From contig JAIXQU010000091.1 of the NCBI GenBank assembly GCA_027485575.1, positions 1 through 33,510 on the forward strand: 33,510 nt of DNA, in the 5' to 3' direction. Of the stretch, positions 2,806 through 18,765 are shown piece by piece (positions within the stretch are counted from its first letter, which is position 1; each line of letters starts with the position of its first letter). The position numbers and the translations under genes were made by a program. Origin of the DNA: Cytophagaceae bacterium. Its GTDB lineage: Bacteria > Bacteroidota > Bacteroidia > Cytophagales > Flexibacteraceae. Under the pieces are notes generated by a model. It worked only from the letters and a program-made list of their open reading frames with translations. It had not been told where the DNA came from and did no database searches.

Positions 2806-2817
2806 CTTAAACAAAAT

Positions 2818-2855
2818 AAAAAAAAGCCAACTCGAATTGAGTTGGCTTTTTTTTT
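2818..2855 (+). terminator. Intrinsic terminator after rpsJ
   Basis: Stem GCCAACTC (2826-2833), 5-nt loop, GAGTTGGC (2839-2846), followed by nine T. The stem is preceded by eight A that can extend the pairing with the T run. It starts 12 nt after the rpsJ stop and closes the str operon. Confidence 0.92.
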
Positions 2856-2908
2856 GAAAAATAAATTAAAATCTTAAAAAGAAGCGCTTTCTACGCTCTC
2901 AATATTAT

Positions 2909-2916
2909 TAGTTTTG
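2909..2916 (+). promoter_or_regulatory. Candidate promoter -7 box for the cystathionine synthase/lyase gene
   Basis: TAGTTTTG fits the Bacteroidota -7 consensus TAnnTTTG and lies 25 nt before the ATG at 2942. The -33 region at the expected spacing is poor (CTTT rather than TTTG), so this is a half match only. Confidence 0.45.
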
Positions 2917-2941
2917 CCTGAGTTTAATTATTATACAATCA

Positions 2942-4081
2942 ATGGAATTTGCCACCAAATTAATACATGCAGGTATTGAACCTGACCCTACCACAGGAGC
3001 TGTTATGACCCCAATCTTTCAGACTTCCACCTATGCACAAACCTCACCGGGAGTGCATAAAGGATATGAATATTCAAGGACTCACAATCCAACAAGAACA
3101 GTTTTGCAAAACAACCTTGCCGCACTTGAAAACGGAAAGTATGGGATTTGCTTTGCAACCGGTTTGGCGGCAACTGATGCGGTTATGAAAATTCTAAAAC
3201 CAGGAGATGAAGTGGTTGCTTCTTCTGACCTATATGGTGGAACTTATAGATTGTTTACCAAAGTTTTCCAGGAATTTGGCATCAAATTTCACTTCGTAAA
3301 GATTCAATCCGGAGAAGATATTATTCCGTTTCTCAATTCAAATACCAAATTGGTTTGGGTGGAAACACCAACAAACCCTTTGCTTCAGATTGTAGATATT
3401 TTATCTCTTTCGTCAGTAACCAATCAAAAAGGTCTGCTGCTGGCTGTGGACAATACTTTTGCAACTCCGTTTCTTCAAAATCCATTGTCACTTGGTGCAG
3501 ATATTGTAATGCATTCTTTGACAAAATATATGGCTGGCCATTCAGATGTGGTAATGGGGGCATTAATTGTAAAAGATGATGCTTTGCACCAAAAGTTGGC
3601 ATTTATCCAAAATGCTACCGGCGCCACCCCAGGCCCAATGGATTGTTTTTTGGTTCTTAGAGGGCTAAAAACACTTCATGTAAGGATGGAAAGACATTGT
3701 CAAAACGGCAGGGAAATAGCAGATTGGCTTTATCGACATCCTAAAGTAGGGCATGTTTATTATCCGGGATTGCCACACCATGTGGGACATGCATTGGCCT
3801 CAAGCCAGATGAATGATTTTGGTGGAATGGTTTCATTTACTTTAAAAAATGATGACCTCGCAGAGGCCGTTAAGTTGATGGAAAATCTTAAACTTTTCAC
3901 CCTTGCAGAATCCCTGGGAGGTGTAGAATCTCTTTGTACTCATCCTGCTTCTATGACTCACGCCAGTATTCCAAAGGAGGAAAGAGAAAAAAATGGATTA
4001 AAAGATACTTTAATAAGGCTAAGTGTGGGGTTGGAAGATATCAAGGACCTGAAAGAAGATCTTTCTCAGGCAATAGGTTGA
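2942..4081 (+). CDS. Cystathionine gamma-synthase / gamma-lyase family PLP enzyme
   Basis: This is a Cys/Met-metabolism PLP enzyme of fold type I, cytosolic and tetrameric in its family, acting in trans-sulfuration (forming or splitting cystathionine). The 379-residue length fits. Visible motifs: YEYSRTHNPTR (43-52, phosphate-binding Tyr/Arg of the neighbouring subunit), FATGLAA (71-77), DNTFATP (170-176) and SLTKYMAGHSD, in which K195 should carry PLP. The C-terminal block AESLGGVESL with CTHPASMTHA is that of the synthase/lyase branch and binds the substrate carboxylate. Sequence alone does not separate metB-type synthase from gamma-lyase or a homocysteine-forming relative, so no symbol is given. 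It is monocistronic by appearance: a terminator upstream, its own -7 box, and a 140-nt gap downstream. Confidence 0.9.
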   Translation: MEFATKLIHAGIEPDPTTGAVMTPIFQTSTYAQTSPGVHKGYEYSRTHNPTRTVLQNNLAALENGKYGICFATGLAATDAVMKILKPGDEVVASSDLYGGTYRLFTKVFQEFGIKFHFVKIQSGEDIIPFLNSNTKLVWVETPTNPLLQIVDILSLSSVTNQKGLLLAVDNTFATPFLQNPLSLGADIVMHSLTKYMAGHSDVVMGALIVKDDALHQKLAFIQNATGATPGPMDCFLVLRGLKTLHVRMERHCQNGREIADWLYRHPKVGHVYYPGLPHHVGHALASSQMNDFGGMVSFTLKNDDLAEAVKLMENLKLFTLAESLGGVESLCTHPASMTHASIPKEEREKNGLKDTLIRLSVGLEDIKDLKEDLSQAIG

Positions 4082-4223
4082 TTTTCTATTGACTTATTTG
4101 TGATTGAATTTCTTATATTTCATTTTTAAATCAGGGAATTTAAAAGATGGGTTACCAATTGGTTTTGTTTTCTATAAAGGATTACTAAAAGGGAACTTGA
4201 AAGTATTATTCAATTTTGAAAAA

Positions 4224-5111
4224 ATGAAAATCAAATATTTTTATACCGCCCTTCTTTACTTTGTGTTTTGTGTATTCGCTGCGCAAGGTGAAGTAAATTC
4301 ACCCCCATTCGCTGATATTGATTTAATCTCTTATTCCCCTGAAACCAATTTTTCGCAATATCATTCTGGAAAAAAGAAAAGGCCAAAAAAAAGGTCATCT
4401 GGAAATAGGTCAAAAGGCGGCAAGGGAGGTTCAAATATTAAGATGTTTAATGGTGATCTTTTTGTGGGTGCGGCTTTAAACTATGCATCCGGGAGCTTCA
4501 TTGAATTTCAAAATGAATTTTATCAGTCAAGGTCTGAATTATTCCCATCAGAAATCAAAACAAATGATTTCAATGGCTTTACTTTTGGCGGGCAGTTCAG
4601 GGTTCATCCAGTTTTAAACCAGGGAAATTTTTTAGAATATATAGGTTTTAGTATAGGTCTTTCTTATTTAAGAAGGGGTTTTGGCTCCGAATTTATTATG
4701 GAAAATAAAGGCCTGGACTATACTGACAAAACATCAATTTCAGAAACATATAAGGCCAATTTTTTATCCACACTCATTCTTTTCAGATATGGAGGCAAAT
4801 TGTATTTGGATGTTGGACCCTCCTTTGATTGGTTTTTATCCGGTAAAAAAAACTTTAGTTTAAAAAGAAGTACCGAAGGTGACAAAGCCTATAATGGTCC
4901 GTTTAATACAGACCAAACAGGTCCTGAGGAAAAGCTTTCATCTGATTTAATAAAATCCGGAGGAGTTAGTTGGAATTTTGGAGCAGGATATAACATTACA
5001 AATATGTTTGGAATTCGGGTTATGGGTAATTCAAGTTCAACTTTTTTTAAGGAGGGTGCCAATATGAAAAACCTTCAACTATCGGTTCAGGCCACAGTAA
5101 CTTTTAACTAG
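4224..5111 (+). CDS. Secreted outer-membrane beta-barrel-like protein with a polybasic linker
   Basis: The function is not recognised. The ATG at 4224 is chosen over an upstream in-frame ATG at 4104 because it gives a clean signal peptide (MKIKYFYTALLYFVF..., cleavage near residue 22). After it comes an unusual Lys/Arg/Gly/Ser-rich stretch (about residues 49-69), then repeated alternating hydrophobic strands with glycines and a C-terminal segment ending in LQLSVQATVTFN, a typical final barrel strand. It is compatible with an 8-10-stranded porin-like or PorT-like barrel of 295 residues. A lipoprotein gene starts 2 nt after the stop, so the two are likely cotranscribed and may work together at the outer membrane. 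No catalytic motif is seen. Confidence 0.6.
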   Translation: MKIKYFYTALLYFVFCVFAAQGEVNSPPFADIDLISYSPETNFSQYHSGKKKRPKKRSSGNRSKGGKGGSNIKMFNGDLFVGAALNYASGSFIEFQNEFYQSRSELFPSEIKTNDFNGFTFGGQFRVHPVLNQGNFLEYIGFSIGLSYLRRGFGSEFIMENKGLDYTDKTSISETYKANFLSTLILFRYGGKLYLDVGPSFDWFLSGKKNFSLKRSTEGDKAYNGPFNTDQTGPEEKLSSDLIKSGGVSWNFGAGYNITNMFGIRVMGNSSSTFFKEGANMKNLQLSVQATVTFN

Positions 5112-5113
5112 CA

Positions 5114-6088
5114 ATGAAAATACTATTAAGAGTCCTTATTTTAATTTCTTCCTTTGCTTTTCTTCAGTCATGCTCTAAAGAAAATGATTTAACATCACCT
5201 GCCCTTCTCGGAATTGATCCGGTTGCAAATAGAGATGGTCTGAATAAAGTTCTTCAAATGGAAGGACATTATTATGATGGAGAAGAAATTCCAAGAGATA
5301 AACTATTTTTAAATTCAATCCTTGATCCATCAAATAATGGCTTTCCGTTATTAAGTTTATCGGGTACGCAAAGGATAATCGAACTTGCACAAGGGGTTCA
5401 GATTTATTTGCCTTTTAAATTCACTCAAAATGGACTTCCTTTTAATCTACCTGCAGGATTTAGAATCTGCAATGCCTATATTCAGGTAAGTGGGTCAAAT
5501 GGATATTGGAAAACACCGGTTAAAGTAGAGGATAATGGAACTGAATATTATCTCGAAACTTTGATACCTAAATTTGTAAAAGAAGGCGCATTTAATTTTT
5601 CGTACAGCGCAGAAATTTGCGGAAAATACTTAGGTAAAGAAATAAACTATATAACGGATACGACCACCACCAACATTGATGTTTTACCAAAGCTGAATTG
5701 CGCAGATACACTTCGTGTCCCCCCCATCGTAGATACACTTCATGGCTCCGTTGGATTAACCATTAGAAAGGTTCAATTGGGCGAAAAGAAAGGAAGGGTA
5801 AGAATCCGATGTTTTACCTATACCGTTGGAGACCGGATTGATATAAAGTTCAATAATAATTATGTAATAAGTACAGCAGGTGCTCTGCTACCGGAAGGAA
5901 AATATCCAAGATGTAAATCTCCAAATGGGCCCGCAGAAGGTTTTTTAACAACTGGTATACTTCCCAATTTTAAAGATTACTTTTTTGATTATGATCCAGC
6001 CAAAGGAAGAGAACTAACCATTTATGGTTTAGGTAGTTGTAATGATGGAAGAACCGTTTGGGATGTGATTGTTTATTGTCCTGAATAA
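5114..6088 (+). CDS. Uncharacterised lipoprotein
   Basis: No family is recognised. The N-terminus MKILLRVLILISSFAFLQSC is a textbook lipoprotein signal with the lipidated cysteine at residue 20, followed by SKEND. The body (324 residues) is beta-rich, with several cysteines in its second half (NCADTLRV, RIRCFTY, PRCKS, GSCNDG, VYCPE) that could form periplasmic disulfides. It begins 2 nt after the barrel-like gene, which implies a shared transcript and perhaps a shared complex. The 3' end faces the NlpE-like gene, leaving 3 nt between the two stop codons and no obvious terminator hairpin. Confidence 0.75.
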   Translation: MKILLRVLILISSFAFLQSCSKENDLTSPALLGIDPVANRDGLNKVLQMEGHYYDGEEIPRDKLFLNSILDPSNNGFPLLSLSGTQRIIELAQGVQIYLPFKFTQNGLPFNLPAGFRICNAYIQVSGSNGYWKTPVKVEDNGTEYYLETLIPKFVKEGAFNFSYSAEICGKYLGKEINYITDTTTTNIDVLPKLNCADTLRVPPIVDTLHGSVGLTIRKVQLGEKKGRVRIRCFTYTVGDRIDIKFNNNYVISTAGALLPEGKYPRCKSPNGPAEGFLTTGILPNFKDYFFDYDPAKGRELTIYGLGSCNDGRTVWDVIVYCPE

Positions 6089-6091
6089 TAT

Positions 6092-6547
6092 TTACCTGAT
6101 CTTTGGAAGCCAAAAATTCTGCTTCTTTTCCACCACTCCTTTTCTATCCAAAAACTTCAAAACAGAATCTCCTTCCAATATAAAGCGGGTAAATAATGAG
6201 TCCGAATCTGGTCCAATTGAAAATGTCTGGTCAAGGCTATTAAAAGCCAGCTTACCGGAAAAGCTGAATGAATTGTCAAAAACAGGCTCTTTCCCAAGTA
6301 ATACAATCGACTTTTTATATGTTGAGTCGCTATTCAGGTCTATTTTAGTTAATTGTCCAACGCAATCTTTACAAGGCAAAGTATCCTGGTAAGAACCTGC
6401 CCAATTTGGAATTTCTATAAATGAACTTTTTACTTGTTCCTTCTCTTCGATGTCGGACTTCGCTTTTTCAGGTTCTCCTTCAGAACAGGAGAACTGGGTA
6501 ATCAACAGAACCAACAAACAGACAGTACCTTGAATGATTTTTAGCAT
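6092..6547 (-). CDS. NlpE-like copper resistance/envelope-stress lipoprotein
   Basis: The product is 151 residues with a lipoprotein signal (lipobox ITQFSC, Cys21) and an acidic Glu/Lys-rich linker, then one NlpE N-terminal-type domain: WAGSYQDTLPCKDCVG (49-64) carries the diagnostic GxYxxxLPCxxC pattern with the CxxC at 59-62, followed by a small beta-barrel with ...LNSDSTYKKS.... In enterobacteria NlpE activates Cpx signalling on adhesion or copper stress. Here there is only the N-terminal domain, which is common in Bacteroidota, and no Cpx genes nearby, so the role is open. It is transcribed alone, divergently from the DUF2723 gene. Confidence 0.8.
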   Translation of the reverse strand: MLKIIQGTVCLLVLLITQFSCSEGEPEKAKSDIEEKEQVKSSFIEIPNWAGSYQDTLPCKDCVGQLTKIDLNSDSTYKKSIVLLGKEPVFDNSFSFSGKLAFNSLDQTFSIGPDSDSLFTRFILEGDSVLKFLDRKGVVEKKQNFWLPKIR

Positions 6548-6636
6548 AGAATCAAATTTCAGCGCCGGAAAATTGGTAAAATTTCAGCTAAAAACTTCAA
6601 TTCCTTTGCTTAAAAAAAATGTAGTTGAATGAAAAC

Positions 6637-6666
6637 TTGGCAAAGCCTTGTTTTTAACTAGTTTTG
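6637..6666 (+). promoter_or_regulatory. Bacteroidota-type promoter upstream of the DUF2723 gene
   Basis: TTG at 6637-6639, a spacer of 19 nt, and TAGTTTTG at 6659-6666 match the -33/-7 consensus (TTTG, N19, TAnnTTTG). Predicted transcription would start some 60 nt before the ATG at 6736. Confidence 0.7.
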
Positions 6667-6735
6667 CGCTCTGTTAAACCGAGAATAAAAACTCTCCTTT
6701 TTTTGATATTCTTTTTCAAGACTATTTAGTTATTC

Positions 6736-9700
6736 ATGACCTCATTCCAAAGATCTAATAATCTTGTTGGCTGGCTGGTTTTTGCCATTGCAACTTATAC
6801 CTACACTGTAACCACCGAACCAACTGGCAGCTTCTGGGATTGCGGTGAATTCATCGCTGTATCCTACAAACTAATGGTTCCGCATCCTCCAGGGGCGCCG
6901 TTCTTTCTATTGGTCGGCCGTTTGTTTTCTATGCTTGCAGGCTCAGATGTTACCCAGGTTGCTTTTTGGGTTAATATGGTTTCTGTCCTATGTTCCTCCT
7001 TTTCGTCCTTGTTTTTATTCTGGTCAATTACCTTGCTGGCACGAAAACTTGTTGTTGAAAAAGGACAGGAAATTACAAATACCCAATCTATTGGGATTTT
7101 GGGAGCCGGTCTTATTGGAGGTTTGGCCTATACTTTTAGTGATTCAGCCTGGTTTTCAGCGGCTGAAGCCGAAGTCTATGCCATGTCAAGTTTTTTCACA
7201 GCAATCGTGTTCTGGGCAATCCTTAAATGGGATGCTGTAGCGGATGAGCCTCTGGCTGACAGATGGCTAATTTTCATTGCTTACATGATGGGCCTTTCGA
7301 TAGGAGTTCACTTGTTAAATCTCGTTACTATACCTGCAATGGCATATGTCTATTATTTCAGGAGGTACGATAATTCCATCAAAGGTTTGGTCTATACTTT
7401 TCTTGTAAGTCTTGTGATTTTAGGCGTGATACAGGTTGGAGTTATAACTGGTTTGCCTTCAATTGCCAATAGTTTTGAAATCTTCTTTGTCAACAGTCTT
7501 GGACTTCCCTTCAATTCGGGAATATTATTTTTCGTTTTTGTCTTTTTGGGTTCATTGGTTTATGGCATAATCTACACCCAAAAACACTCAAAAACCCTTG
7601 CCAATATGGCTTTGCTTTGTTTTTCCTTCGTTTTGATAGGTTATGCGTCATACGGAATTATTCTAATCAGGTCCAATTTTAATCCGCCAATTGACGAAAA
7701 TGACCCTGAAAACGCGATTACTTTTGTTAGTTATCTCAAGCGAGAACAGTATGGTGACAGACCTTTACTTTACGGTCCTCAGTATAATGCTTCCCCAATT
7801 GCAACCAAGGAAGGTGATCCTGTATATTTGAAAGGGAAAGATAAATATGATGTTATCGAAAAGAAACTGGTTCAGGAGTATTCCAGCAAAGACAAAACCC
7901 TGCTGCCAAGAATTTACAGCCCACAAGGAAACCATATAGCAGCGTACAAAAGATGGGTTAAATTACCTGCCGACCCCGAAGCAAAACCATCTTTCGGACA
8001 AAATATAGCCTTCCTTTTTAAATACCAGATTGGGCATATGTATTGGAGATATTTTGGTTGGAACTTTATTGGAAGAGAATCAGATAATCAGGACGCAGGG
8101 GTTTTATCGCCGTTTTCAAGTGATAAAGGGCTTCCTGAATCCATTTCAGAAAACCGGGGAAGAAATAAATATTATGCCTTGCCTTTTCTTTTGGGCATTG
8201 CAGGTTTAATTTTTCAACTCAAAAGAAAGGGTAAAAATGCTTTTATCGTCGGGCTTTTGTTTTTCTTCACGGGAATTGCCATTGTCATTTATCTCAATCA
8301 ACCACCCGTGGAGCCAAGGGAAAGGGATTATACCTTTGCCGGCTCATATTATGCCTTTTGTATTTGGATTGGTTTGGGGGTTTTATTCATTGCTGATTAT
8401 CTAACCAAGCTCCTTAAAAATCAGGCGCTTGCAGGTGTCATTTCTACAATACTTTGTTTAATTGTCCCAACGGTAATGGCAAAAGATGCCTGGGACGATC
8501 ATGACAGATCTGATAGATACCACTCTGTAGATTCGGCAAAAAATCTGCTGAACTCTTGTGCAAAGAACGCCATTCTATTTACCGGGGGCGATAACGATAC
8601 ATTCCCATTGTGGTATGCTCAGGAAGTAGAAGGATTCCGAACTGATGTAAGAGTCTGTAACCTCTCATTACTAGGCACAGATTGGTATGTTGGGCAGATG
8701 AAGAAGAAAGCCTACGAATCAACTCCATTGCCTATTTCCCTTGAACTTAAGCATTACATTCAAGGAAAAAATGATTACATTCCTTTCTATGAAAATACGG
8801 CTGTTAAAGGCGGAATCGACCTGAAAATGCTGATGAAACTCATTGAAAATGAAAATTCTGCGGTTATGGTTGCTACCCAGGGTGGGAAAAGCATTGCCTC
8901 CTATCCTACCAAAACTTTGTCTCTCGATGTAGATAGTGCAACAGTTGCCGAAATGGATTGGATACCGGCCAAAGACAAAAATAAGGTCGTAAAAAATATA
9001 ACCTGGACAATTGGGAAAAATGCATTGTACAAAAATGATTTTGTAGTGCTCAACATTCTGGCTAATATGGACTGGTCCAGACCAATATATTTTTCAACTA
9101 CCCTATCTGGTTCTTCTTATTTGAATTTAAAGCCTTACATGCAATTGGAGGGTCTTGCATATCGTCTAATGCCAATTTACAATCCCGGCGCAAGTGATGG
9201 AGTTGTGAACACACCAGTTATGTATGAGAACATGATGAAGAAAATGTTCTGGAGAAATCTGGATAATCCAAAAGTTTACTATGACGAAAACTACAAACGA
9301 TTTCCACTTAATGCCAGAAAATCATTTTATATGCTGGCTTCACAATTGCTGAATGAAGCTAATTTTGAAGGAGATACTTCCAAACTAACCAACCTGACAA
9401 ATCAGTCTGAAGGGGAAAAGTCAAAAAAACAAAAAGCAAAAGAAGTTCTGGAATATTGTTTCAAAATTATGCCTGACAAGGCGACAGCATATGATGTGTA
9501 CACACCTCAGTTTATTCCATTGTTGCTTGAAATAGGGAACAAAAAACTAGCAGATGAAATCTCAACAACCATGCATAAAAGAGCCATGGACGACCTCGAA
9601 TATCAAGTAAAAAATCCAGCGAGATTTTCATTTGATATTCAAACCAACGTATATGTTTTGCAACAATTATTTATGGCCTATAAAGGTGCCGGGCAAAATG

Positions 9701-9789
9701 ATTTGGCAGATAAATACCAGAAAGACTTTGAAAAGTATGTAAGCTATGCCCAAATGGGTGATGGCGGAGGAAATTATGAAGAAGAATAA
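6736..9789 (+). CDS. DUF2723 family multi-spanning membrane protein (putative glycosyltransferase, GT117/TMEM260-like)
   Basis: The protein has 1017 residues. The first ~560 hold about a dozen hydrophobic helices. The rest is a soluble C-terminal region. The diagnostic DUF2723 start is present: TTEPTGSFWDCGEFIA (27-41, with D35 and E38) and PHPPGAPFFLLVGRLF (49-64), a GT-C-like arrangement with acidic residues in the first extracytoplasmic loop. A second conserved block, PVEPRERDYTFAGSYYAF, occurs near residue 527. The family is related to eukaryotic TMEM260, a protein O-mannosyltransferase, so transfer of a lipid-linked sugar to exported proteins is a reasonable inference for this copy. It has its own promoter and terminator and so is a monocistronic unit. 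Substrate and acceptor cannot be read from the sequence. Confidence 0.85.
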   Translation: MTSFQRSNNLVGWLVFAIATYTYTVTTEPTGSFWDCGEFIAVSYKLMVPHPPGAPFFLLVGRLFSMLAGSDVTQVAFWVNMVSVLCSSFSSLFLFWSITLLARKLVVEKGQEITNTQSIGILGAGLIGGLAYTFSDSAWFSAAEAEVYAMSSFFTAIVFWAILKWDAVADEPLADRWLIFIAYMMGLSIGVHLLNLVTIPAMAYVYYFRRYDNSIKGLVYTFLVSLVILGVIQVGVITGLPSIANSFEIFFVNSLGLPFNSGILFFVFVFLGSLVYGIIYTQKHSKTLANMALLCFSFVLIGYASYGIILIRSNFNPPIDENDPENAITFVSYLKREQYGDRPLLYGPQYNASPIATKEGDPVYLKGKDKYDVIEKKLVQEYSSKDKTLLPRIYSPQGNHIAAYKRWVKLPADPEAKPSFGQNIAFLFKYQIGHMYWRYFGWNFIGRESDNQDAGVLSPFSSDKGLPESISENRGRNKYYALPFLLGIAGLIFQLKRKGKNAFIVGLLFFFTGIAIVIYLNQPPVEPRERDYTFAGSYYAFCIWIGLGVLFIADYLTKLLKNQALAGVISTILCLIVPTVMAKDAWDDHDRSDRYHSVDSAKNLLNSCAKNAILFTGGDNDTFPLWYAQEVEGFRTDVRVCNLSLLGTDWYVGQMKKKAYESTPLPISLELKHYIQGKNDYIPFYENTAVKGGIDLKMLMKLIENENSAVMVATQGGKSIASYPTKTLSLDVDSATVAEMDWIPAKDKNKVVKNITWTIGKNALYKNDFVVLNILANMDWSRPIYFSTTLSGSSYLNLKPYMQLEGLAYRLMPIYNPGASDGVVNTPVMYENMMKKMFWRNLDNPKVYYDENYKRFPLNARKSFYMLASQLLNEANFEGDTSKLTNLTNQSEGEKSKKQKAKEVLEYCFKIMPDKATAYDVYTPQFIPLLLEIGNKKLADEISTTMHKRAMDDLEYQVKNPARFSFDIQTNVYVLQQLFMAYKGAGQNDLADKYQKDFEKYVSYAQMGDGGGNYEEE

Positions 9790-9823
9790 AAAAAAGAGGG
9801 TCTTTCGACCCTCTTTTTTTTTT
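9788..9823 (+). terminator. Intrinsic terminator after the DUF2723 gene
   Basis: Stem GAGGGTC (9796-9802), TTTC loop, GACCCTC (9807-9813) and ten T, with eight A before the stem. It overlaps the stop codon at 9787-9789. The A and T runs let it act in both directions, which suits the convergent trmB gene. Confidence 0.92.
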
Positions 9824-9895
9824 AAAAGCCAGTAATTAAATGCGTTTCTGGTTATTCCCTTTTTATCAAACTTCCTATGGAAATCGAATCCCAAC

Positions 9896-10612
9896 TCAAC
9901 CCATTTCTTCTTTTCTGAAAAAGATTGGAGGTATAGTTCCTTCTGGTTCGCTTAATTCTGGCAATCTGAATTTCAAATAATTTATCTTAAATCCTTTTTG
10001 GGTAAACTTATTTTCAAAATAGGTCTTGATACCCAAATGCTCTTCCCGCCAGTCAGATTCATATAAGTCGTGGGTTAGAACTAATATTTCACCTCCCAGG
10101 TCAGTGACAGATTGCACAGTATAATCCATGAGGGAACGGTTGTCGGTTTTTAGGTGAATAATCGAATTGGCTTTAATCACATGCTGGTACAACTTTAAAA
10201 ACCTGGAGAAGGTGAGCCTCTTTTTTTCATCTTTATCCCTGGGTCGTGGATCAGGAAATGTGATCCATAGTTCATCCACTTCCTTCCAGCCAAAAAAAGA
10301 CCTTAGATTTTCAATCTTACCACGTAAAAAAGCAACATTAGAAAGGTCACTTTCTATTGCAGACCTGGCACCAACATAAATTCTGGAACCCTTTATATCC
10401 ATTCCTACAAAGTTCTTTTCAGGGAAGGCCTTACCCAATCCAAAACTATATTCCCCTTTTCCACAAGCTAGTTCAACGACCAGAGGCTGGGTATTCAAAA
10501 AAAAATCTGAATTCCATTTTCCAGCCATTTCTAAAAAGTTAGGTTTACCCATTTCTATAATATTGGGCATTATTTTGCTCTCCGCAAAACGCTTACTTTT
10601 TTGTCTGGACAT
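9896..10612 (-). CDS. trmB: tRNA (guanine-N7-)-methyltransferase
   Basis: TrmB forms m7G46 in the variable loop of tRNAs using SAM, in the cytoplasm. The product has 238 residues, the usual length. The SAM-binding motif ELACGKGEY is at 47-55, followed by the acidic end of the next strand in VGMDIKG (69-75). The family signature FPDPRPRDKDEKKRL is near residues 119-133 and the substrate-binding HLKTDN follows. The conserved tryptophan in FPDPW is replaced by arginine here, a modest deviation. The gene has its own -7 box and converges with the DUF2723 gene across a bidirectional terminator. Confidence 0.93.
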   Translation of the reverse strand: MSRQKSKRFAESKIMPNIIEMGKPNFLEMAGKWNSDFFLNTQPLVVELACGKGEYSFGLGKAFPEKNFVGMDIKGSRIYVGARSAIESDLSNVAFLRGKIENLRSFFGWKEVDELWITFPDPRPRDKDEKKRLTFSRFLKLYQHVIKANSIIHLKTDNRSLMDYTVQSVTDLGGEILVLTHDLYESDWREEHLGIKTYFENKFTQKGFKINYLKFRLPELSEPEGTIPPIFFRKEEMG

Positions 10613-10636
10613 TTTTGATTTTAATTTTTAAAAGCC

Positions 10637-10644
10637 CAAAACTA
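10637..10644 (-). promoter_or_regulatory. Candidate -7 box for trmB
   Basis: On the minus strand TAGTTTTG matches TAnnTTTG and lies 24 nt before the trmB ATG (10612). No good TTG is found 19 nt further upstream, so only the -7 element is supported. Confidence 0.45.
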
Positions 10645-10705
10645 TGTATTTCAATTATGATTTGTGCTTAGTAAAAAATCCCAACAAGCTACAAAAAAGA
10701 AAAAA

Positions 10706-11134
10706 CTAGTAAACCATTGTTATTTCAAGATTGGTGGTCTTGCTTTGATGCTCAAACATAGCATCATCAAAATCCGGGATATTCAGCAAAGATGATTTGT
10801 AATTACTAAATGCAAATCCCTCCTTTGGCAAATGCAAAATGTTATAGGTCATTTTGAAATTGCCATCCTCATCATGCAATAAGGCTATGGCGTACTTACC
10901 TGGTGGAATATTTTTCAATACTATTTCCTCTTTCGGGTCTTCAACAAAAGATTTAAAAGCACTTTTTTCATCCTGTGGAAATCCCCTTGCTGATTTAAAA
11001 ATTGAAATCAGAATTTTTCCTTTTTTTGTTTTTAGCTTCGAAAATTTAAGGATGACGTCATGATTTTCATTTTTAGAAAAAACAGCACCATTGAAAAATA
11101 CTGAAAGCCAAGTAATTAAACCCAAGAAAACCAT
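10706..11134 (-). CDS. DUF2141 family exported protein
   Basis: The start at 11134 is preferred to a far-upstream in-frame ATG because it gives a signal peptide (MVFLGLITWLSVFFNGAVFS) and avoids running under the promoter region of the divergent epimerase gene. The 142-residue product shows the DUF2141 pattern: KKGKILISIF, then IPPGKYAIALLHDEDGN and LPKEGFAFSN, and the C-terminal LEITMVY strand. The family is a small Ig-like beta-sandwich secreted by many Bacteroidota and Proteobacteria. Its biochemical role is unknown. It is divergent from mce, with about 210 nt between them in which I find no perfect promoter match on either strand. Confidence 0.8.
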   Translation of the reverse strand: MVFLGLITWLSVFFNGAVFSKNENHDVILKFSKLKTKKGKILISIFKSARGFPQDEKSAFKSFVEDPKEEIVLKNIPPGKYAIALLHDEDGNFKMTYNILHLPKEGFAFSNYKSSLLNIPDFDDAMFEHQSKTTNLEITMVY

Positions 11135-11345
11135 CTTTAATTCTTTAATTTTTATACCGATGCAAAATTGCTTGTAAAATGAATACTTAAAACCCTTTTG
11201 AATTCTCAAAGGAAAGCCGAAAAACAATTCCTGTCCAAAACTGAAATATTTTTTTTCACTCTTCCCAACAATCAATTCTGAATAAATCTTAGGAAACAGA
11301 ATTTTGTTTGATTTTTTTTGTCTTTTTAAAATCGAAAATTTAAAT

Positions 11346-11750
11346 ATGTTTGAAAGCATAGAACACCTTGGAATTGCAGTTTCTAACCCTGAAAAAGCAA
11401 AAATCACTTTCGAAAAGCTATTGGGAATTAAAATGACCAAATCGGAAACAGTGGCCTCTGAAAAAGTTGAAACTCATTTCTTCCAAATCGGAAATAGCCA
11501 AATTGAACTTTTGGAAAGCTTGAGTCCGGATGGTGTTATATCAAAATATATAGAAAAAAAAGGCCAGGGAATGCACCATCTGGCTTTAAAGACCAATAAT
11601 CTTTTGGAAGAAATTTCAAGGCTAAAAGAATTGGGTTTTGAGTTTATAAGCGAGATTCCCAAAAAAGGCGCTGACAATAAATTGATAGTTTTTATCCACC
11701 CAAAATTCACTGAAGGAGTCTTAGTAGAACTTTGTCAGGAAATCGCATAA
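11346..11750 (+). CDS. mce: Methylmalonyl-CoA epimerase
   Basis: A glyoxalase-fold (VOC) enzyme that interconverts (2R)- and (2S)-methylmalonyl-CoA in the propionyl-CoA/succinyl-CoA route. The 134-residue length is typical. Expected metal ligands are all visible: H7 in IEHLGIAV, Q52 in NSQIELLE, H78 in GMHHLAL and E128 in VLVELCQ. The start at 11346 was chosen because the family begins with the MxxIEHLGIAV strand; an upstream in-frame ATG at 11304 would add 14 unrelated residues. Methylmalonyl-CoA mutase genes are not in this window, so the partner enzyme must be encoded elsewhere. The next gene overlaps or abuts its stop, suggesting one transcript. Confidence 0.92.
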   Translation: MFESIEHLGIAVSNPEKAKITFEKLLGIKMTKSETVASEKVETHFFQIGNSQIELLESLSPDGVISKYIEKKGQGMHHLALKTNNLLEEISRLKELGFEFISEIPKKGADNKLIVFIHPKFTEGVLVELCQEIA

Positions 11751-12625
11751 ATTTGGCAGACCAGTATTTTTATAACACGGACCCATTTCTGTCAAATCAG
11801 GGAGAACCCTGTATCATGGAATTAAGCCAGGGGATATCCAATGCCCGAATTGCCTGGTTTAAAAAAAATGCGGAAGGATTTAGTCCTTTGAAGGCTCCGT
11901 TTGGTTCCATAGAAATTCAAGGTCCCTATTCTAATTCACTTACTAATCAACTAATTGAAAAACTTTTGGCTAGGCTGAGGGATGAAAAGGTTACTTCAAT
12001 CACAATAACAATGCCGCCAGATGGATACAATAAAGAAGCTGGATTTCTAATTTCAAAAGCCTATGAAAACTATGGTTTCAATATTTTATTTCAGGACTTT
12101 AATTTTCATATTGAAGTAAATTCAGAATTCAGAAAACACCTTCATAGGTCAGAAAGATGGAAATTAAATAAATCAATAAGAGAGGGCTATACTTTCCGAA
12201 AAGTCGAAATTCCTAATTGGGAAGAAACTTTCAACCTATTACAAGAAAGTAGAGAGCGGAAAGGGTTTTTGTTAAGTATGGATAGACTTAGTCTGGAAAA
12301 ATCATTCAAAGACTTTCCTGAAAAATACCAGCTTTTTTCTGTTCTAAAGGATGAAAAAACAGTTGCTATTGCCGTAACCATAAGGGTGAATAAAGAAATA
12401 TTATATGTCTTTTACACTGCTGATTCCCTAATCCACAGAAAATTGAGTCCGGTTGTCCTTCTTCATAACGGGATTTATCAATATTGTATATCTGAAAAAA
12501 TTGAAATTTTAGACCTTGGAACCTGCTCTTTGAAAGGACAGGTAAACAGTGGCGTTGCTAATTTTAAAAAAAATCTTGGGGGAATTGTCTCTCTAAAAAA
12601 CACTTTTATAAAAAGATTTCAATAG
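11732..12625 (+). CDS. FemAB/GNAT-like acyltransferase-fold protein, function unknown
   Basis: The product, up to 297 residues, resembles the FemAB/Acetyltransf_6 group: a first half with ISNARIAWFKK and APFGSIEIQG, a basic RKHLHRSERWKLNKS helix, then a GNAT-like half with AVTIRVNKEILYVFYTA and a terminal LGTCSLKGQVNSGVANFKKN motif that is usual near the end of such domains. The donor and acceptor are unknown. The start is uncertain: TTG at 11732 overlaps mce by 19 nt, TTG at 11753 lies 2 nt after the mce stop, and the first ATG is at 11816. The reading frame before that ATG (LADQYFYNTDPFL) looks protein-like, so a TTG start coupled to mce is preferred. It converges with the NlpC/P60 gene, 3 nt between stops. 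Confidence 0.65.
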   Translation: MSGNRINLADQYFYNTDPFLSNQGEPCIMELSQGISNARIAWFKKNAEGFSPLKAPFGSIEIQGPYSNSLTNQLIEKLLARLRDEKVTSITITMPPDGYNKEAGFLISKAYENYGFNILFQDFNFHIEVNSEFRKHLHRSERWKLNKSIREGYTFRKVEIPNWEETFNLLQESRERKGFLLSMDRLSLEKSFKDFPEKYQLFSVLKDEKTVAIAVTIRVNKEILYVFYTADSLIHRKLSPVVLLHNGIYQYCISEKIEILDLGTCSLKGQVNSGVANFKKNLGGIVSLKNTFIKRFQ

Positions 12626-12628
12626 GAT

Positions 12629-13423
12629 CTAACCGAAAACCCGTCTTGCAAATAGAAATCTTCCTTTGAAATATGGATTGGAACTTTTGCTAACTACCAC
12701 TCCCTGAGACGAAGACGCATGTATAAATTCAAAGTCTGAACCAATTTTAGAAACAACAAACCCGACATGATTCACATCTTGGTTGTTCTTATACTGTCCC
12801 GAGAAAAAAACCAAATCTCCGGGTTGAATTTCCTCCTCTGATATTTCCCTTCCTTTTGCACCTATTTCGGATGCATAATAGGGCATTTCTATTCCAAATG
12901 GTTTAAAAATGAAACGTACGAAACCAGAACAATTCATCCCATCGACGCCATACGGAGTCCCGGTTTTTGAATTAGCCAGTTTCAGTGCTTCCCCGAAATT
13001 GAAAATCCGGTACGGAATGGTATCATTCTTTATGAAAACAGAATCAACTTTAACAGGAAGTCCTGCCTTGTTGTAGTACTCCGTAACATTGGCAAAAACA
13101 GGGTCGAAATATTGCACTTTAAACAACCCATTTACTGACTCCAAAGGCGTTTGGTCTGACCACCTTCTTGTATTAAACATAACATGTCCTTTCTTATTTA
13201 TAAACCACCAATAGCCGTCATCCCGTACTACTGGTGCAATTGAACCTATAAATGGATAGGCTTTCTGGTATTCTTGTTTTATAACAATAGTTTCATTGAG
13301 ATCGCAATACCCCCATAAATCACCCGTATGGCAAGGCCGTAAAACACTCTGGCCCAATACCTTAAATCTAATAAAAAATAAAGAGACAAAAAATAACAGG
13401 AATAAAAAAATTTTAAATCTCAT
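12629..13423 (-). CDS. Exported NlpC/P60 cysteine peptidase with a WG-like repeat
   Basis: Members of this family cut peptidoglycan stem peptides. The start at 13423 gives a hydrophobic signal sequence (MRFKIFLFLLFFVSLFF...) and a 264-residue product; an upstream in-frame ATG at 13507 is less likely. Residues about 30-100 contain a WG-type beta segment (GDLWGYCDLNETIVIKQEY, ...GYWWFINKKG). The C-terminal NlpC/P60 domain has GMNCSGF with the nucleophile C165, NHVGFVV with H219, and FIHASSSQG with H235. The usual DCSGF reads NCSGF here, a small deviation next to the nucleophile. The gene stands alone and is divergent from the small ORF at 13537. Confidence 0.85.
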   Translation of the reverse strand: MRFKIFLFLLFFVSLFFIRFKVLGQSVLRPCHTGDLWGYCDLNETIVIKQEYQKAYPFIGSIAPVVRDDGYWWFINKKGHVMFNTRRWSDQTPLESVNGLFKVQYFDPVFANVTEYYNKAGLPVKVDSVFIKNDTIPYRIFNFGEALKLANSKTGTPYGVDGMNCSGFVRFIFKPFGIEMPYYASEIGAKGREISEEEIQPGDLVFFSGQYKNNQDVNHVGFVVSKIGSDFEFIHASSSQGVVVSKSSNPYFKGRFLFARRVFG

Positions 13424-13536
13424 ACCAAATTTTATAATTTGACCTACACCCAAAGAAAAATACCAAACCATTAACTTATTGAACAAAATAATAAACCAAA
13501 TTTGCAAGTACTAAAATCATCATTATTCAATTTTGA

Positions 13537-13944
13537 ATGGAACTAAAACCAAGTGAAAGCGAAATCTTGTTTCCTTCCGAGGAGATACTATATATGAGTG
13601 AAATGCTGGTAAAAGTAGCAATACCCAAAAGCCCGTATTTATTGCCTCAGGAAACTGAATTGATTAAAAAAATTTGTGCTTCGCTTGGTTACAAAACACA
13701 GGAAATTCTATGGCATTATTATGACAATCAAATTACGTTGCCAGAATTTTCAAAAGCAGATGAAAAGATAACCAACGAAATTCTATTAATTTTTGATGAC
13801 AATAAATCCATTAATGAAACGCCAAACTACCAACTATTTGAAAAAACACATGTATTCAATTTACCACCAATATCAAAATTGCTGGCAAACGAAGACATAA
13901 AAAGAGGCGTATGGAAACAATTAAAGCCTTTTACCAGGAATTAA
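13537..13944 (+). CDS. Small hypothetical protein, possible distant HolD (DNA polymerase III psi)-like
   Basis: The protein is 135 residues, acidic, with no signal peptide or membrane helix. No family is recognised with confidence. An N-terminal segment predicts a beta strand (LVKVAIPKS), then helix (ETELIKKICASLGY) and strand (ILLIFDD). The C-terminus HVFNLPPISKLLAN then KRGVWKQLK has the shape of the end of the psi subunit, where a strand leads into a proline, a helix with L-x-x-N, and a basic helix with a Trp. This is a memory-based resemblance, not a demonstrated homology. The gene stands just upstream of the promoter for the rplC operon and would be transcribed from its own signal. Confidence 0.55.
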   Translation: MELKPSESEILFPSEEILYMSEMLVKVAIPKSPYLLPQETELIKKICASLGYKTQEILWHYYDNQITLPEFSKADEKITNEILLIFDDNKSINETPNYQLFEKTHVFNLPPISKLLANEDIKRGVWKQLKPFTRN

Positions 13945-13986
13945 ATGTCTCAAAATCAAAAATTAAAATATTTTTACAAAAAAGTT

Positions 13987-14015
13987 TTGATCGTCAATCT
14001 CTTTCCTTAATTTTG
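13987..14015 (+). promoter_or_regulatory. Promoter of the rplC-rpsN ribosomal protein operon
   Basis: TTG at 13987-13989 (within TTTTG), an 18-nt spacer, and TAATTTTG at 14008-14015 form a near-consensus Bacteroidota promoter. It leaves a leader of about 40-45 nt before the rplC ATG at 14065. It explains how the rest of the S10 cluster is expressed without rpsJ. Confidence 0.75.
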
Positions 14016-14033
14016 CACTCCCATTTTGAAACC

Positions 14034-14047
14034 CTCGGCCTGCCGAG
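14034..14047 (+). promoter_or_regulatory. Hairpin in the rplC leader
   Basis: CTCGGC, CT, GCCGAG is a perfect inverted repeat; as RNA it would fold as a 5-bp GC-rich stem with a CCUG tetraloop. It lies in the short leader 17 nt before the rplC ATG, in otherwise AT-rich DNA. In enterobacteria the S10-operon leader is the target of L4 autoregulation; whether this hairpin serves such control is inference. Confidence 0.4.
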
Positions 14048-14064
14048 TAAATTCAATAATAACA

Positions 14065-14682
14065 ATGTCTGGAATAATAGGAAAAAAAATTGGCATGACC
14101 ACCTACTATGGTGAAGATGGTGCCAGCATAGCCTGCACTGTAGTGGAGGCTACGCCAAACGTGGTAACACAAGTCAAAACCAAGGAGAAGGATGGCTACG
14201 CAGCTGTTCAACTTGGATTTGGAGAAAAAAGAGAGAAAAGTACCACCAAACCTTTGGCAGGTCACTTTAAAAAATCTGGAACAACTCCAAAACTTAAGCT
14301 TGTAGAATTCAGAACCTTCAAATCTGGATTAAATCCAGGTCAGGAAGTAGATCTAAATATTTTCGAAATCGGAGATTATATAGATGGAATAGGTACTTCT
14401 AAAGGGAAAGGATTCCAAGGTGTTGTTAAAAGACACGGCTTCGCTGGTGTTGGTGGACAAACTCACGGACAGCACAACAGAGCAAGACATCCAGGTTCAA
14501 TTGGAGCTTGTTCTTTTCCAGCCAGAGTATTCAAAGGTCTGAAAATGGCCGGCAGAACAGGCGGAAGCAGAGTCAAAGTTCAAAATTTAAGAATTCTTAA
14601 GCTGATGCCAGAAAAAAATCTGATTCTGGTTAGCGGCTCTTTACCAGGTTATAATAATTCATACGTAATTTTAGAGAAATAG
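14065..14682 (+). CDS. rplC: 50S ribosomal protein L3
   Basis: L3 is an early-assembly 50S protein near the peptidyl transferase centre. The start at 14065 gives [12 protein letters not shown], the canonical L3 N-terminus; an in-frame ATG at 14026 would add 13 residues and overlap the leader hairpin, so it is rejected. The product has 205 residues. Typical blocks are [33 protein letters not shown] and KMAGRTGG. It is the first gene of its transcription unit here, unlike the usual arrangement with rpsJ just upstream. Confidence 0.97.
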
Positions 14683-14686: not shown

Positions 14687-15313
14687 ATGAATCTTTCAGT
14701 CATTAATAAAGACGGACAGAATACAGGTCGTTCTGTTTCTCTTCCGGAATCAATTTTCGCAATTACACCAAATGAACATGCTGTTTATTTGGATGTAAAG
14801 CATCACCTGGCCAATCAAAGGCAAGGAACCCACAAGGCAAAAGAAAGAGCAGAAATTGCCCGAACTACCAAAAAGCTTAAAAAGCAAAAAGGTACTGGAG
14901 GAGCAAGAGCTGGCTCTATGAAATCCCCTGTTTTCGTGGGTGGTGGTAGAATATTTGGACCAAGACCAAGGGATTACGATTTTAAACTTAACAAGAAAGT
15001 TAAAGATCTCGCCAGAAAATCAGTTTTGACAAGCAAGGCTACTGAAGGAAAGATTTCATTTTTGGAATCAGTTAATTTAGGAACTCCTTCAACCAAAGAT
15101 TTTATCAAAATGCTTGAGGCAATGTCTTTGGGTGGTAAAAAATATGTATTCTACACAAATGGTGTAAATTCTAATTTTTACTTGTCAGGAAGAAATATAC
15201 CATCAGTAACCATTCTTCCAATACAAAATGTTAATACTTATGACCTCATTAATACGGATGTCATTGTTTTTGAAGAAGGTACAGTAGAAATTTTACAAAC
15301 AATTTTAAGTTAA
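14687..15313 (+). CDS. rplD: 50S ribosomal protein L4
   Basis: L4 lines the peptide exit tunnel and in some bacteria represses its own operon. The product is 208 residues. The tunnel loop is recognisable: KKLKKQKGTGGARAGS (about 62-77), then FVGGGRIFGPRPRDY. The gap to rplC is 4 nt and to rplW 1 nt. The sequence shows nothing unusual in the loop. Confidence 0.97.
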   Translation: MNLSVINKDGQNTGRSVSLPESIFAITPNEHAVYLDVKHHLANQRQGTHKAKERAEIARTTKKLKKQKGTGGARAGSMKSPVFVGGGRIFGPRPRDYDFKLNKKVKDLARKSVLTSKATEGKISFLESVNLGTPSTKDFIKMLEAMSLGGKKYVFYTNGVNSNFYLSGRNIPSVTILPIQNVNTYDLINTDVIVFEEGTVEILQTILS

Positions 15314-15314
15314 A

Positions 15315-15602
15315 ATGCCAGTCCTTAAGAAGCCGGTAATCAACGAGAAATTTGCAAAGCTCAATCAACAGGGCGTCTATGGTTTTATAGTAGACAAAAA
15401 TGCAAATAAGATTGAGATTAAAAAGGCAGTTGAAACCATGTTCGGTGTCAATGTTGATAGTGTCAATACACTAATCACCATTGGAAAGGTAAAAAACCGA
15501 AGTACAAAAGCCAGATTTATTTCGGGCCGAAAAAGTTCTTACAAGAAAGCCATTATTACATTGGCAAAAGGTGAAACCATAGACATTTACGCTGCTATTT
15601 AA
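15315..15602 (+). CDS. rplW: 50S ribosomal protein L23
   Basis: L23 sits at the tunnel exit and is the docking site for trigger factor and SRP. The 95-residue product begins [17 protein letters not shown] and contains [19 protein letters not shown] and [11 protein letters not shown], the standard L23 core. It is separated from its neighbours by a single nucleotide on each side. Confidence 0.95.
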
Positions 15603-15603
15603 T

Positions 15604-16431
15604 ATGGGACTAAAGAAATTCAAACCAGTAACCCCGGGAACCAGATTCAGGATTCTTCCTGATTTCGCGGAAATTACAACATCGACCCCTGAAAAAAGTC
15701 TTGTAACTTCAATCAAAAGATCTGGAGGAAGAAATAATACAGGGAAAATGACCATGCGATACCTGGGTGGTGGTCACAAGAAAAGTTACAGAATAATAGA
15801 CTTTAAAAGAGATAAACACAACATCCCTGCCAAAGTTGCATCTGTAGAATACGATCCAAACAGAACTGCCTACATCGCACTATTGGTATATGCAGATGGT
15901 GAAAAAAGATATATCATAGCTCCGACCGGAGTTAAGGTAGGGTCTATTTTATTGTCAGGTCCGGAGGTTGCACCAGAATTAGGAAATTCGTTGCCTCTTT
16001 CAGCAATTCCTTTGGGAACGATTATTTACAATATAGAGCTGAAGCCAGGAAAAGGAGGTTCAATTGCCAGGTCTGCCGGGGCTTATTGCCAACTATTGGC
16101 AAGAGATGGCAAATACGCCACAATTAAAATGCCTTCAGGTGAAATGAGAATGATTCTTTTAACCTGTTATGCCACCATTGGTTCAGCCTCAAATTCAGAC
16201 CATTTTAATGTAACTTCAGGTAAAGCCGGAAGGTCAAGATGGTTTGGAAGAAGACCTAGAGTTAGAGGTGTTGCAATGAATCCTGTCGATCACCCTATGG
16301 GAGGTGGAGAAGGAAGGGCTTCAGGAGGGCATCCAAGAAGTAGAAATGGACAGATCGCTAAAGGTTTAAAAACCAGGTCTCCTAAAAAATATTCAGATAA
16401 AATGATCATTAGCCGAAGAAAATCTAAATAA
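15604..16431 (+). CDS. rplB: 50S ribosomal protein L2
   Basis: L2 binds 23S rRNA near the peptidyl transferase centre and is needed for subunit association. It has 275 residues, normal length. The N-terminal half contains [19 protein letters not shown], and the C-terminal block reads [20 protein letters not shown]. In many bacteria the second His of DHPHGGGEG is present; here it is Met, which I believe is a lineage variant in Bacteroidota. The stop and the rpsS start overlap by one base (TAATG). Confidence 0.97.
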
Positions 16432-16709
16432 TGGGTAGGTCGTTAAAAAAAGGTCCTTATATAGACTTTCGTCTGGACAATAAGATCCAGGCATTAAATA
16501 CATCAGGAAAGAAGTCAGTGATTAAAACATGGTCACGAAGAAGTATGATTTCTCCTGATTTTATAGGTCATACTTTTGCAGTGCACAACGGAAATAAATT
16601 TATTCCTGTTTATGTAACTGACAACATGGTAGGACATAAATTGGGTGAATTTGCTCCTACCCGAAATTTTAGGGGGCATGGTGGTAAAAAGGACAAAGGC
16701 AAAAGATAA
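16431..16709 (+). CDS. rpsS: 30S ribosomal protein S19
   Basis: S19 contacts 16S rRNA in the 30S head with S13. The 92-residue product begins [15 protein letters not shown] and has [20 protein letters not shown] and [18 protein letters not shown], all canonical. Start and stop codons overlap those of rplB and rplV by one base each, so translation is probably coupled. Confidence 0.97.
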
Positions 16710-17053
16710 TGGAAGCAGTAGCAAAATTAAATAATGTCCCTACCTCACCTCGCAAAATGCGTTATGTGGTAGACCTTATCAGAAATAAACCTGTAGCCAA
16801 TGCGCTAAGCACGCTTCAGTTTTTAGATAAGTCAGGATCGGTATTTGTTGATAAAGTTTTAAGGTCTGCAATTGCAAACTGGCAAACAAAAAATCCTGAC
16901 CTTTCCATAGAAGATGCAAACCTCCATGTAACCAAAGTATTTGTGGATGGTGGCAGAGTCTTAAAAAGACTTCGTCCAGCTCCTCAGGGAAGAGCACACC
17001 GAATTCGAAAAAGATCAAATCATATCACACTAGCCGTAGATTCAAAAGCTTAA
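16709..17053 (+). CDS. rplV: 50S ribosomal protein L22
   Basis: L22 crosses the 50S to the exit tunnel with an extended beta hairpin. In 114 residues it shows [20 protein letters not shown] at the N-terminus, LRSAIANWQ in the core and the tunnel hairpin around [20 protein letters not shown], followed by [14 protein letters not shown]. The ATG overlaps the rpsS stop by one base. Confidence 0.97.
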
Positions 17054-17054
17054 A

Positions 17055-17888
17055 ATGGGACAGAAAACTAATCCCGTAGGTCTACGTCTTGGCATCATCA
17101 GAGGATGGGAATCCAACTGGTTTGGTGGCAAGACCTACGCAGATAAAATTGTTGAAGACGATAAAATCCGCACCTACCTCGCCCGACGTATAAACAAGGG
17201 TGGAATATCAAAAATAGTAATTGAACGAACCCTCAAAAGGGTTACCTTAACAATAAATACTGCCAAGCCTGGTGTGGTTATTGGAAAGGGAGGAGCGGAA
17301 GTTGATAAAATCAAAGAAGAATTAAAGCGCTTTACCAGCAAAGATGTTCAAATAAACATCTTTGAAATAAAGAGGCCGGAATTGGATGCCAAACTTGTAG
17401 GTGAAAGTATTGCTCAACAATTAGAAGCAAGGATTTCATTTAGGAGAGCTATGAAACAAGCAATTGCCGGTACAATGCGGGCAGGTGGTCTTGGAATCAA
17501 AGTTAAAGTATCTGGCCGATTGGGCGGAGCTGAAATGGCCCGAAGTGAGCAGTACAAGGATGGAAGAATTCCTTTGCACACACTGAGAGCTGATATTGAT
17601 TATGCAATCTCAGAAGCTTTGACAGCCTATGGTAAAATAGGTATCAAAGTTTGGATATTCAAGGGCGAAGTTTTTGGAAAAAGAGATTTATCTCCAAATG
17701 CTGGCCAGGCTGCTCAATCTACATCTGGCGAAAACAACGACAGAAGAGGAGGCGGAAATGACAGAAGAAATGATAGAAGAGGTGGAGATAGAGACAATCG
17801 CGGTGGAGGAAGAGGAAATCAGGGAGGAGGCGATAGAAGATCTGGAGGAGGCTCTGGTGGAAGAAGAAATGAAGGTTCTAAATCTTAA
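17055..17888 (+). CDS. rpsC: 30S ribosomal protein S3 with an Arg/Gly-rich C-terminal tail
   Basis: S3 forms the mRNA entry channel with S4 and S5. Residues 1-210 are a normal S3: [14 protein letters not shown] start, KH domain with [12 protein letters not shown] (72-83), and the C-domain ending [15 protein letters not shown]. From about residue 211 to 277 follows a low-complexity tail of Asn/Asp/Arg/Gly repeats ([33 protein letters not shown]). The reading frame stays intact to its own stop, 12 nt before rplP, so this is not a frameshift artefact in the downstream gene. The tail resembles eukaryotic RGG boxes and could bind RNA, but that is inference. Confidence 0.96.
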
Positions 17889-17900
17889 ATAATCTGAGAA

Positions 17901-18320
17901 ATGTTACAGCCTAAAAGAACCAAGTTCAGAAAACAACAAAAAGGAAGAGTAAAAGGTATCGCAACCAGAGGTTACACTGTGGATTTTGGTAGCTTTGGAA
18001 TAAAATCTTTAGAAGCTGGCTGGATTACAGCCCGCCAAATAGAAGCAGCTCGAATTGCCGTAACCAGAGCAATGAAAAGAGAAGGTCAGGTCTGGGTAAG
18101 AATTTTTCCTGATAAACCTATCACAAAAAAGCCGGCTGAAGTACGTATGGGTAAAGGTAAAGGAGCTCCGGAATATTGGGTAGCCTGCATCAAGCCTGGT
18201 ACTATCATTTTTGAAGCCAATGGTGTTTCATTAGAGCAAGCACAGGAATCATTAAGACTAGCTGCTCAAAAGCTTCCGGTAAGAACAAAATTTGTTACAC
18301 GTCCAGATTACGCTGAATAA
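17901..18320 (+). CDS. rplP: 50S ribosomal protein L16
   Basis: L16 helps organise the A-site side of the 50S. The 139-residue product has the standard start [16 protein letters not shown], then [30 protein letters not shown], and [15 protein letters not shown]. The Arg targeted for hydroxylation in other bacteria sits in the RMGKGKG block and is present. It stops one nucleotide before rpmC begins. Confidence 0.97.
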
Positions 18321-18321
18321 G

Positions 18322-18507
18322 ATGAAAAAGAAAGATTTCAAATCGCTGAGTAAAGAACAACTCAAGGAAAAATTAGTTGAACTATCGGCACTTTATGGAA
18401 AAATGCAATTTGCCCATGGAGTCACAAATCTTGAGAATCCATTACAGATAAGAACTATCCGTAGAGATATTGCAAGAATTAACACTTTTCTTTCAACAGG
18501 AAAATAA
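18322..18507 (+). CDS. rpmC: 50S ribosomal protein L29
   Basis: L29 is a small two-helix protein at the tunnel exit near L23. The start at 18322 ([18 protein letters not shown]) gives 61 residues; an in-frame ATG at 18292 would overlap rplP by 29 nt and add a meaningless extension. The second helix [16 protein letters not shown] is the usual end. It is 1 nt from rplP and 2 nt from rpsQ. Confidence 0.95.
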
Positions 18508-18509
18508 TC

Positions 18510-18764: not shown

Positions 18765-18765
18765 A

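Follow-up and report, generated by a model that had tools for sequence, protein, structure and literature searches.

Few gene neighbourhoods in bacteria are as well conserved as that of the ribosomal protein genes rpsJ and rplC, which belongs to the str-S10-spc-alpha cluster of the Escherichia coli and Bacillus subtilis type. We analysed a 33,510-nucleotide (nt) stretch of a Cytophagaceae bacterium (assembly GCA_027485575.1, contig JAIXQU010000091.1, positions 1–33,510; hereafter the window, contig C75 of its assembly) in which rpsJ and rplC are both intact but separated by 11.3 kilobases (kb). This separation is real, ordinary for the order Cytophagales and best interpreted as the physical completion of an earlier transcriptional split. 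It is very probable, in our judgement, that the rpsJ–rplC junction of Cytophagales first became a border between two transcription units and was physically separated later, repeatedly. The border elements, their occurrence in relatives that are not split and the recurrence of the split can all be seen in the sequences. The border in the window comprises the following features:

2,500–2,805, + strand: rpsJ (S10; PF00338, 127 bits), sole copy and final gene of the putative str transcription unit
about 2,818–2,855, + strand: predicted intrinsic terminator 3' of rpsJ, a stem-loop with a T-run (−20.6 kcal/mol, z-score −7.2)
13,986–14,015, + strand: predicted rplC promoter, TTTG (13,986–13,989), 18 nt, TAATTTTG (14,008–14,015)
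14,020–14,064, + strand: rplC leader of 45 nt with the hairpin CUCGG-CCUG-CCGAG, predicted start at about 14,020
14,065–14,682, + strand: rplC (L3), ATG at 14,065, first gene of the putative S10-spc transcription unit

The terminator fold was equalled by none of 200 shuffles. The sequence ahead of rplC fits the sigma-A promoter pattern of Bacteroidota, TTTG-18 nt-TAnnTTTG, whose −33 element is TTTG. The −7 box, TAnnTTTG, is positioned at −12 to −5 in a published description (PMC9723704), and this placement gives the predicted leader start. Both boxes are present in the window, with a spacer of 18 nt compared with the order's modal 19 (column counts across the order place TTTG about 19 nt upstream of the box), and the form in this genome adds a conserved GCAnTCC tail 3' of the box that also occurs at its tRNA and other genes. 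The 14-nt form TANNTTTGCANTCC has 19 matches in the genome, against one for the reversed pattern. Six lie just ahead of tRNAs and others ahead of rplC and rpsH (S8 by Pfam); by reading only, matches also precede a groEL, a phosphoglycerate kinase, an argS and four further genes, and four (L182, L184, L191 and L193) have no clear gene. It looks like the promoter form of growth genes.

A sequence-only reading of the window had claimed that rpsJ and rplC are separated by 11 kb, that rpsJ ends in a strong terminator at 2,818–2,855, that eleven genes on both strands follow without any transposase or integrase, and that rplC has its own near-consensus promoter. These claims were all borne out. Instead of following directly on rpsJ, rplC lies beyond eleven plausible genes called on both strands, and transposase or integrase models matched none of their proteins in Pfam and none of the ten scanned with NCBIfam. 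The assembly (198 contigs, listed as 100% complete) contains one rpsJ and one rplC; a second rpsJ elsewhere was rejected, this being the sole S10 gene in the genome.

Comparison of the interval across relatives revealed that the separation recurs. Our Cytophagales sample comprised 118 genomes including this one. Both genes were found in 114 of these, and since G093 carries each of them twice, perhaps through contamination, the entries number 115. Separated pairs outnumber adjacent ones in the order, by 75 to 40 among the 115 entries. Eleven of the separated pairs lie within 20 kb (the window included), 16 are farther apart or reversed on one contig and 48 are on different contigs. A contig-edge artefact was rejected for this last class: all 48 cases have at least 450 nt without the partner gene on at least one side (in seven, only the rplC side was examined), compared with a longest unsplit rpsJ–rplC gap of 401 nt. 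All entries of families f2 (leaving aside the second G093 copy), f4, f14, f18, f21 and f22 are separated; f1, f8, f10, f12, f15, f19 and f20 are mixed, and the remaining families adjacent. A two-gene tree of 105 genomes, itself weakly supported, requires 18 changes of the adjacency label; as f8 and f12, both mixed, form starred clades on it, separation would have occurred more than once. In three f22 genomes (L147, L160 and L175) a sequence that reads as tRNA-like comes directly after rpsJ. In the phylum sample, the genes are adjacent in 18 of 23 genomes from other orders of the class and in 75 of 76 genomes with both genes outside it (the lone exception lies at contig ends). The assumption that contiguity is typical of Bacteroidota therefore fails in Cytophagales. 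Three records of Bacteroidales metagenome-assembled genomes (L262, L267 and L294) have 4 kb upstream of rplC without rpsJ, and a TAnnTTTGCAGCCC box; they are a further case of separation outside the order. Judging by titles and abstract openings, mostly outside subscription journals, we found no published account of the split, of leader control or of the promoter.

The evidence for an early border comes from genomes in which the two genes are still neighbours. In the 200 nt upstream of rplC, TAnnTTTG occurs in all 39 adjacent genomes and in 67 of 76 others (the 75 separated ones plus G099, in which rpsJ was not found), against 17–19% in shuffles and 5/39 and 18/76, respectively, on the opposite strand. 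The 14-nt extended form TAnnTTTGCAnTCC is present in 31/39 adjacent and 42/76 other genomes and absent from both the shuffles and the opposite strand. In the 140 nt past the rpsJ stop, a terminator is found in 28 of the 39 adjacent genomes and 50 of the 66 separated genomes with the rpsJ side examined, compared with 20 of 210 shuffles; under stricter scanning the respective numbers were 24/39, 42/66 and 26/1,050. All 28 adjacent genomes having both elements carry the terminator ahead of the promoter. The window's family is represented by a single unsplit genome, G058, whose 185-nt gap contains both elements, as do the gaps of 229 and 380 nt in the unsplit f12 genomes G012 and G087. Six f12 relatives have about 1.2–3.8 kb of extra DNA between rpsJ and the rplC promoter, with the terminator detected in five; leaders in this family are of the same kind as in named Hymenobacter. 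A set of 80 named loci (none dropped, one with too little upstream sequence; 13 of 30 phylum-sample loci, L302–L331, were dropped as matches on the other strand) shows the same association with the gap: the box is absent from all 26 loci with gaps below 100 nt, even across 200 nt upstream, and present in 16 of 29 with gaps of 100–499 nt (15 inside the last 200 nt), in 6 of 6 with gaps of 500–2,000 nt and in 17 of 18 without rpsJ in at least 2 kb upstream. The rplC promoter, whose start site had been taken to be new, is itself not new, for it already exists in relatives whose rpsJ and rplC are neighbours.

Since unsplit relatives already carry the border, the superoperon most likely consisted of two transcription units before separation, and with the border in place the halves could be separated several times. 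In the mechanism that we propose, the str unit (here rpsG-fusA-rpsJ) would stop at the intrinsic terminator just past rpsJ and the S10-spc unit would begin at rplC, driven by a separate sigma-A promoter that often has the extended form, so that DNA inserted or moved between the two would uncouple no gene from its promoter. The halves would have parted several times, the window being one genus-wide case in which the surroundings of rpsJ were probably reshuffled recently. The S10-spc unit would then most likely be controlled at rplC, by the promoter and a short structured leader, and not ahead of rpsJ. Several observations weigh against this model. Finding the border in both split and unsplit genomes fits a border that came first without proving the order of events, and the tree is weak. 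The box is absent within 250 nt in 9 of the 76 other genomes (four of f2, two of f10, two of f21 and one of f18), and the fold scan detected no terminator in 11/39 adjacent and 16/66 separated genomes. In all seven f8 and all four f21 genomes examined the terminator is lacking, and read-through may therefore persist there.

In E. coli, L4 controls the S10 operon through a leader ahead of rpsJ. In both systems control is likely to act on structured RNA preceding the L3-L4 genes, whereas the leader in the window lies after rpsJ, directly ahead of rplC, and has no Rfam match. Autocontrol of the S10 operon may plausibly be altered relative to the L4 model. The window hairpin folds with a z-score of −3.1, and all four congeners compared (G072, G085, G099 and G223) carry CUCCG-CCUG-CGGAG, with one pair changed on both sides. 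We are evenly divided on whether this hairpin is neutral or does no more than stabilise the 5' end, the S10-spc unit of the genus then lacking leader control: it has only five base pairs, a single compensatory swap in five genomes supports it and the 58-nt stretch of G223 folds no better than shuffles (z −0.8), but leaders across the order outfold shuffles (mean z −1.6 over 104 genomes, 43 of which beat them at p up to 0.05) and other families carry conserved elements at the same place. Leader shapes differ strongly between families. Rfam gave no match in the window, thus no known ribosomal leader family, and its matches across 20 related loci were limited to one tRNA and one Flavo-1, neither of them at rplC. 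One f18 genus (L102, L118, L124 and L132, from G034, G063, G077 and G090) has an rplC leader of about 156 nt with a strong predicted fold and a conserved stretch near AAGGACCAGACGGGGAG.

Elsewhere in Bacteroidia we found two conserved RNA elements at the junction, neither with an Rfam match. Element R1, in Pedobacter, Sphingobacterium, Mucilaginibacter and relatives, reads CACC-UUGAACGAAGC-CCUACU-GCUUCG-AUGGGUG just before rplC (L229, L231–L234, L237, L240, L243, L251, L253 and L337–L342; mainly Sphingobacteriaceae). Among eight distinct sequences pairing holds in 97.5% of cells, and both sides differ in 5 of the 10 pairs, a value reached in 1 of 500 shuffles (mean 2.0) and compared with 0–2 in slid versions; the structure was drawn by eye from the same eight sequences. 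A model of R1 had ten matches in 197 genomes of the class, six of them strong, immediately upstream of rplC and all in f23, and four weak (expectation value (E) 0.001–0.004, one in the window's own genome) at loci without rplC. In the three of the six f23 genomes with known rpsJ, this gene lies 12 kb to 2 megabases away; in the unsplit L243 the element sits inside the 71-nt rpsJ–rplC gap. The model did not match the window leader (one match elsewhere, E 1.5).

Element R2, in part of Flavobacteriaceae, consists of ACAUGUCC-hairpin-GGAAAAACGG (also written ACATGTCC...GGAAAAACGG) followed by a terminator-like hairpin. It occurs in the rpsJ–rplC gap of 15 loci, 12 named and 3 of f26 (L259, L264, L265, L271, L277, L279–L281, L285, L288, L292, L296, L307, L325 and L331), and nowhere else in the DNA examined. 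R2 with its terminator-like hairpin is a candidate attenuator, a role suggested by its presence in 10 of the 13 named loci that have a 100–499-nt gap and no promoter box anywhere in it; in L264 and L265 a box lies upstream of it. R2 is not family-wide, being absent from named Flavobacteriaceae that include L258, L290, L298, L299 and L301 (gaps of 27–57 nt). Its short inner helix covaries modestly (in 3 of 6 pairs, matched in 14 of 500 shuffles); the counts exclude the terminator stems of the Flavobacteriaceae gap, which MAFFT misaligns. With 33 candidates scored per genome, the R2 model matched at least 2 of the 197 class genomes, and it gave no match in the window or nine other loci tried (two matches at E 3.7 and 8). 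The rpsJ–rplC gaps of L074, L084 and L223 contain a conserved stretch like GAAGGTCCG...GGAAACCACATCTG, without an Rfam match, followed in L084 and L223 by a terminator-like hairpin.

Such elements suggest a broader reading, to which we lean slightly less than evenly: in Bacteroidia the S10 control point may have moved from ahead of rpsJ to the rpsJ–rplC junction, a move that would let the superoperon fall apart, with group-specific devices that would be unrecognised ribosomal-protein leader RNAs. These would be an element of about 33 nt with a terminator-like hairpin and usually no box in the gap, as a putative attenuator, in part of Flavobacteriaceae; a promoter with a compact, covarying leader element of about 35 nt in Sphingobacteriaceae; and a promoter with lineage-specific hairpin leaders in Cytophagales, the window included.

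The opposite order of events, a chance rearrangement that broke the cluster first and an rplC promoter gained later by chance or selection, seems improbable to us. In its favour, a derived promoter is suggested by the adjacency of the genes outside the class and by the lack of the box in named loci with a tight gap. Against this order stands the box in every one of the 39 unsplit Cytophagales genomes examined, 33–83 nt from the rplC ATG and 31 times in the 14-nt form.

The remaining features that we mapped in the window, including the genes between the border elements, are:

3–374, + strand: rpsG, truncated by the contig start (95–98% identity to two congeners)
387–2,486, + strand: fusA (elongation factor G)
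2,942–4,081, + strand: pyridoxal-phosphate enzyme of Cys/Met metabolism (PF01053; metB/metC type, here metC)
4,104–5,111, + strand: gene without a family match; by eye, this gene and the next are outer-membrane-like and lipoprotein-like
5,114–6,088, + strand: gene without a family match
6,092–6,547, − strand: NlpE-domain lipoprotein (PF04170)
6,736–9,789, + strand: TMEM260-like membrane protein (PF11028)
9,896–10,612, − strand: trmB (NF001080)
10,706–13,944, both strands: DUF2141 (−), glyoxalase/mce-like (+), FemAB-like (+) and NlpC/P60 (−) genes and an open reading frame at 13,537–13,944 (+), the block part retained beside rplC in the genus
14,687–20,292, + strand: rplD, rplW, rplB, rpsS, rplV, rpsC, rplP, (rpmC position), rpsQ, rplN, rplX, rplE, rpsN
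20,346–21,881, + strand: gltX, directly after rpsN, a second cluster break (rpsN|rpsH)

A tRNA search of the window found none. In G072, G099 and G223, three of the four congeners, at least one of these neighbours precedes rplC and rpsJ does not: a homologue of the NlpC/P60 gene and/or of the reading frame at 13,537 in all three, and DUF2141, the glyoxalase/mce-like gene and FemAB in G072 and G099, in the order DUF2141-glyoxalase/mce-FemAB-(NlpC/P60)-reading frame. In G085 the contig reaches only 512 nt beyond rplC on its upstream side. A uracil-DNA-glycosylase-family gene and others follow rpsJ in G072, and the 11.5 kb after rpsJ there contain no rplC. The metC homologue lies near polX in G099 (polX between metC and gltX) and G085 and has no match in G072; G072, G085 and G099 keep NlpE and TMEM260 side by side on other contigs. 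Congeners thus show the same separation independently of the window contig, and their layouts indicate that it is genus-wide and that the present rpsJ neighbours are recent. A single recent insertion was rejected, as the block pieces lie in different places in congeners; by this comparison the genes beside rpsJ are a recent mosaic. The rearrangement had been called old, which holds for the separation, common to the genus, and not for the block as one insertion. The exact 11-kb layout, with rpsJ beside metC, is seen in the window contig alone. A chimeric contig or assembly join is very unlikely, for despite the 198 contigs and an rpsJ–metC junction absent from every relative examined, congeners independently place rplC by the right-hand genes and away from rpsJ, and, as weak evidence, the parts are alike in G+C content (0.34–0.39) and in tetranucleotide profile (correlations 0.81–0.96).

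Gene order inside each half is conserved up to rpsN (leaving out the gene between rplP and rpsQ). The window shares rpsG-fusA-rpsJ and rplC-rplD-rplW-rplB-rpsS-rplV-rpsC-rplP...rplE-rpsN with the E. coli and B. subtilis cluster and differs from it in the 11-kb gap, with its terminator and promoter, and in the cut after rpsN. This second break lies at 20,023–20,346. rpsH-rplF lead another piece elsewhere in the genome (L190, G000:C136:42751 on) under the same TACTTTTGCACTCCC promoter form, and G058 retains rpsN-rpsH-rplF.

Cytophagales offer a testable case of an essential operon breaking without loss, most likely split transcriptionally and then physically, more than once. Separation would be possible repeatedly without obvious cost if the junction was already a point of stop and restart, and the same junction yields candidate ribosomal-protein leader RNAs.

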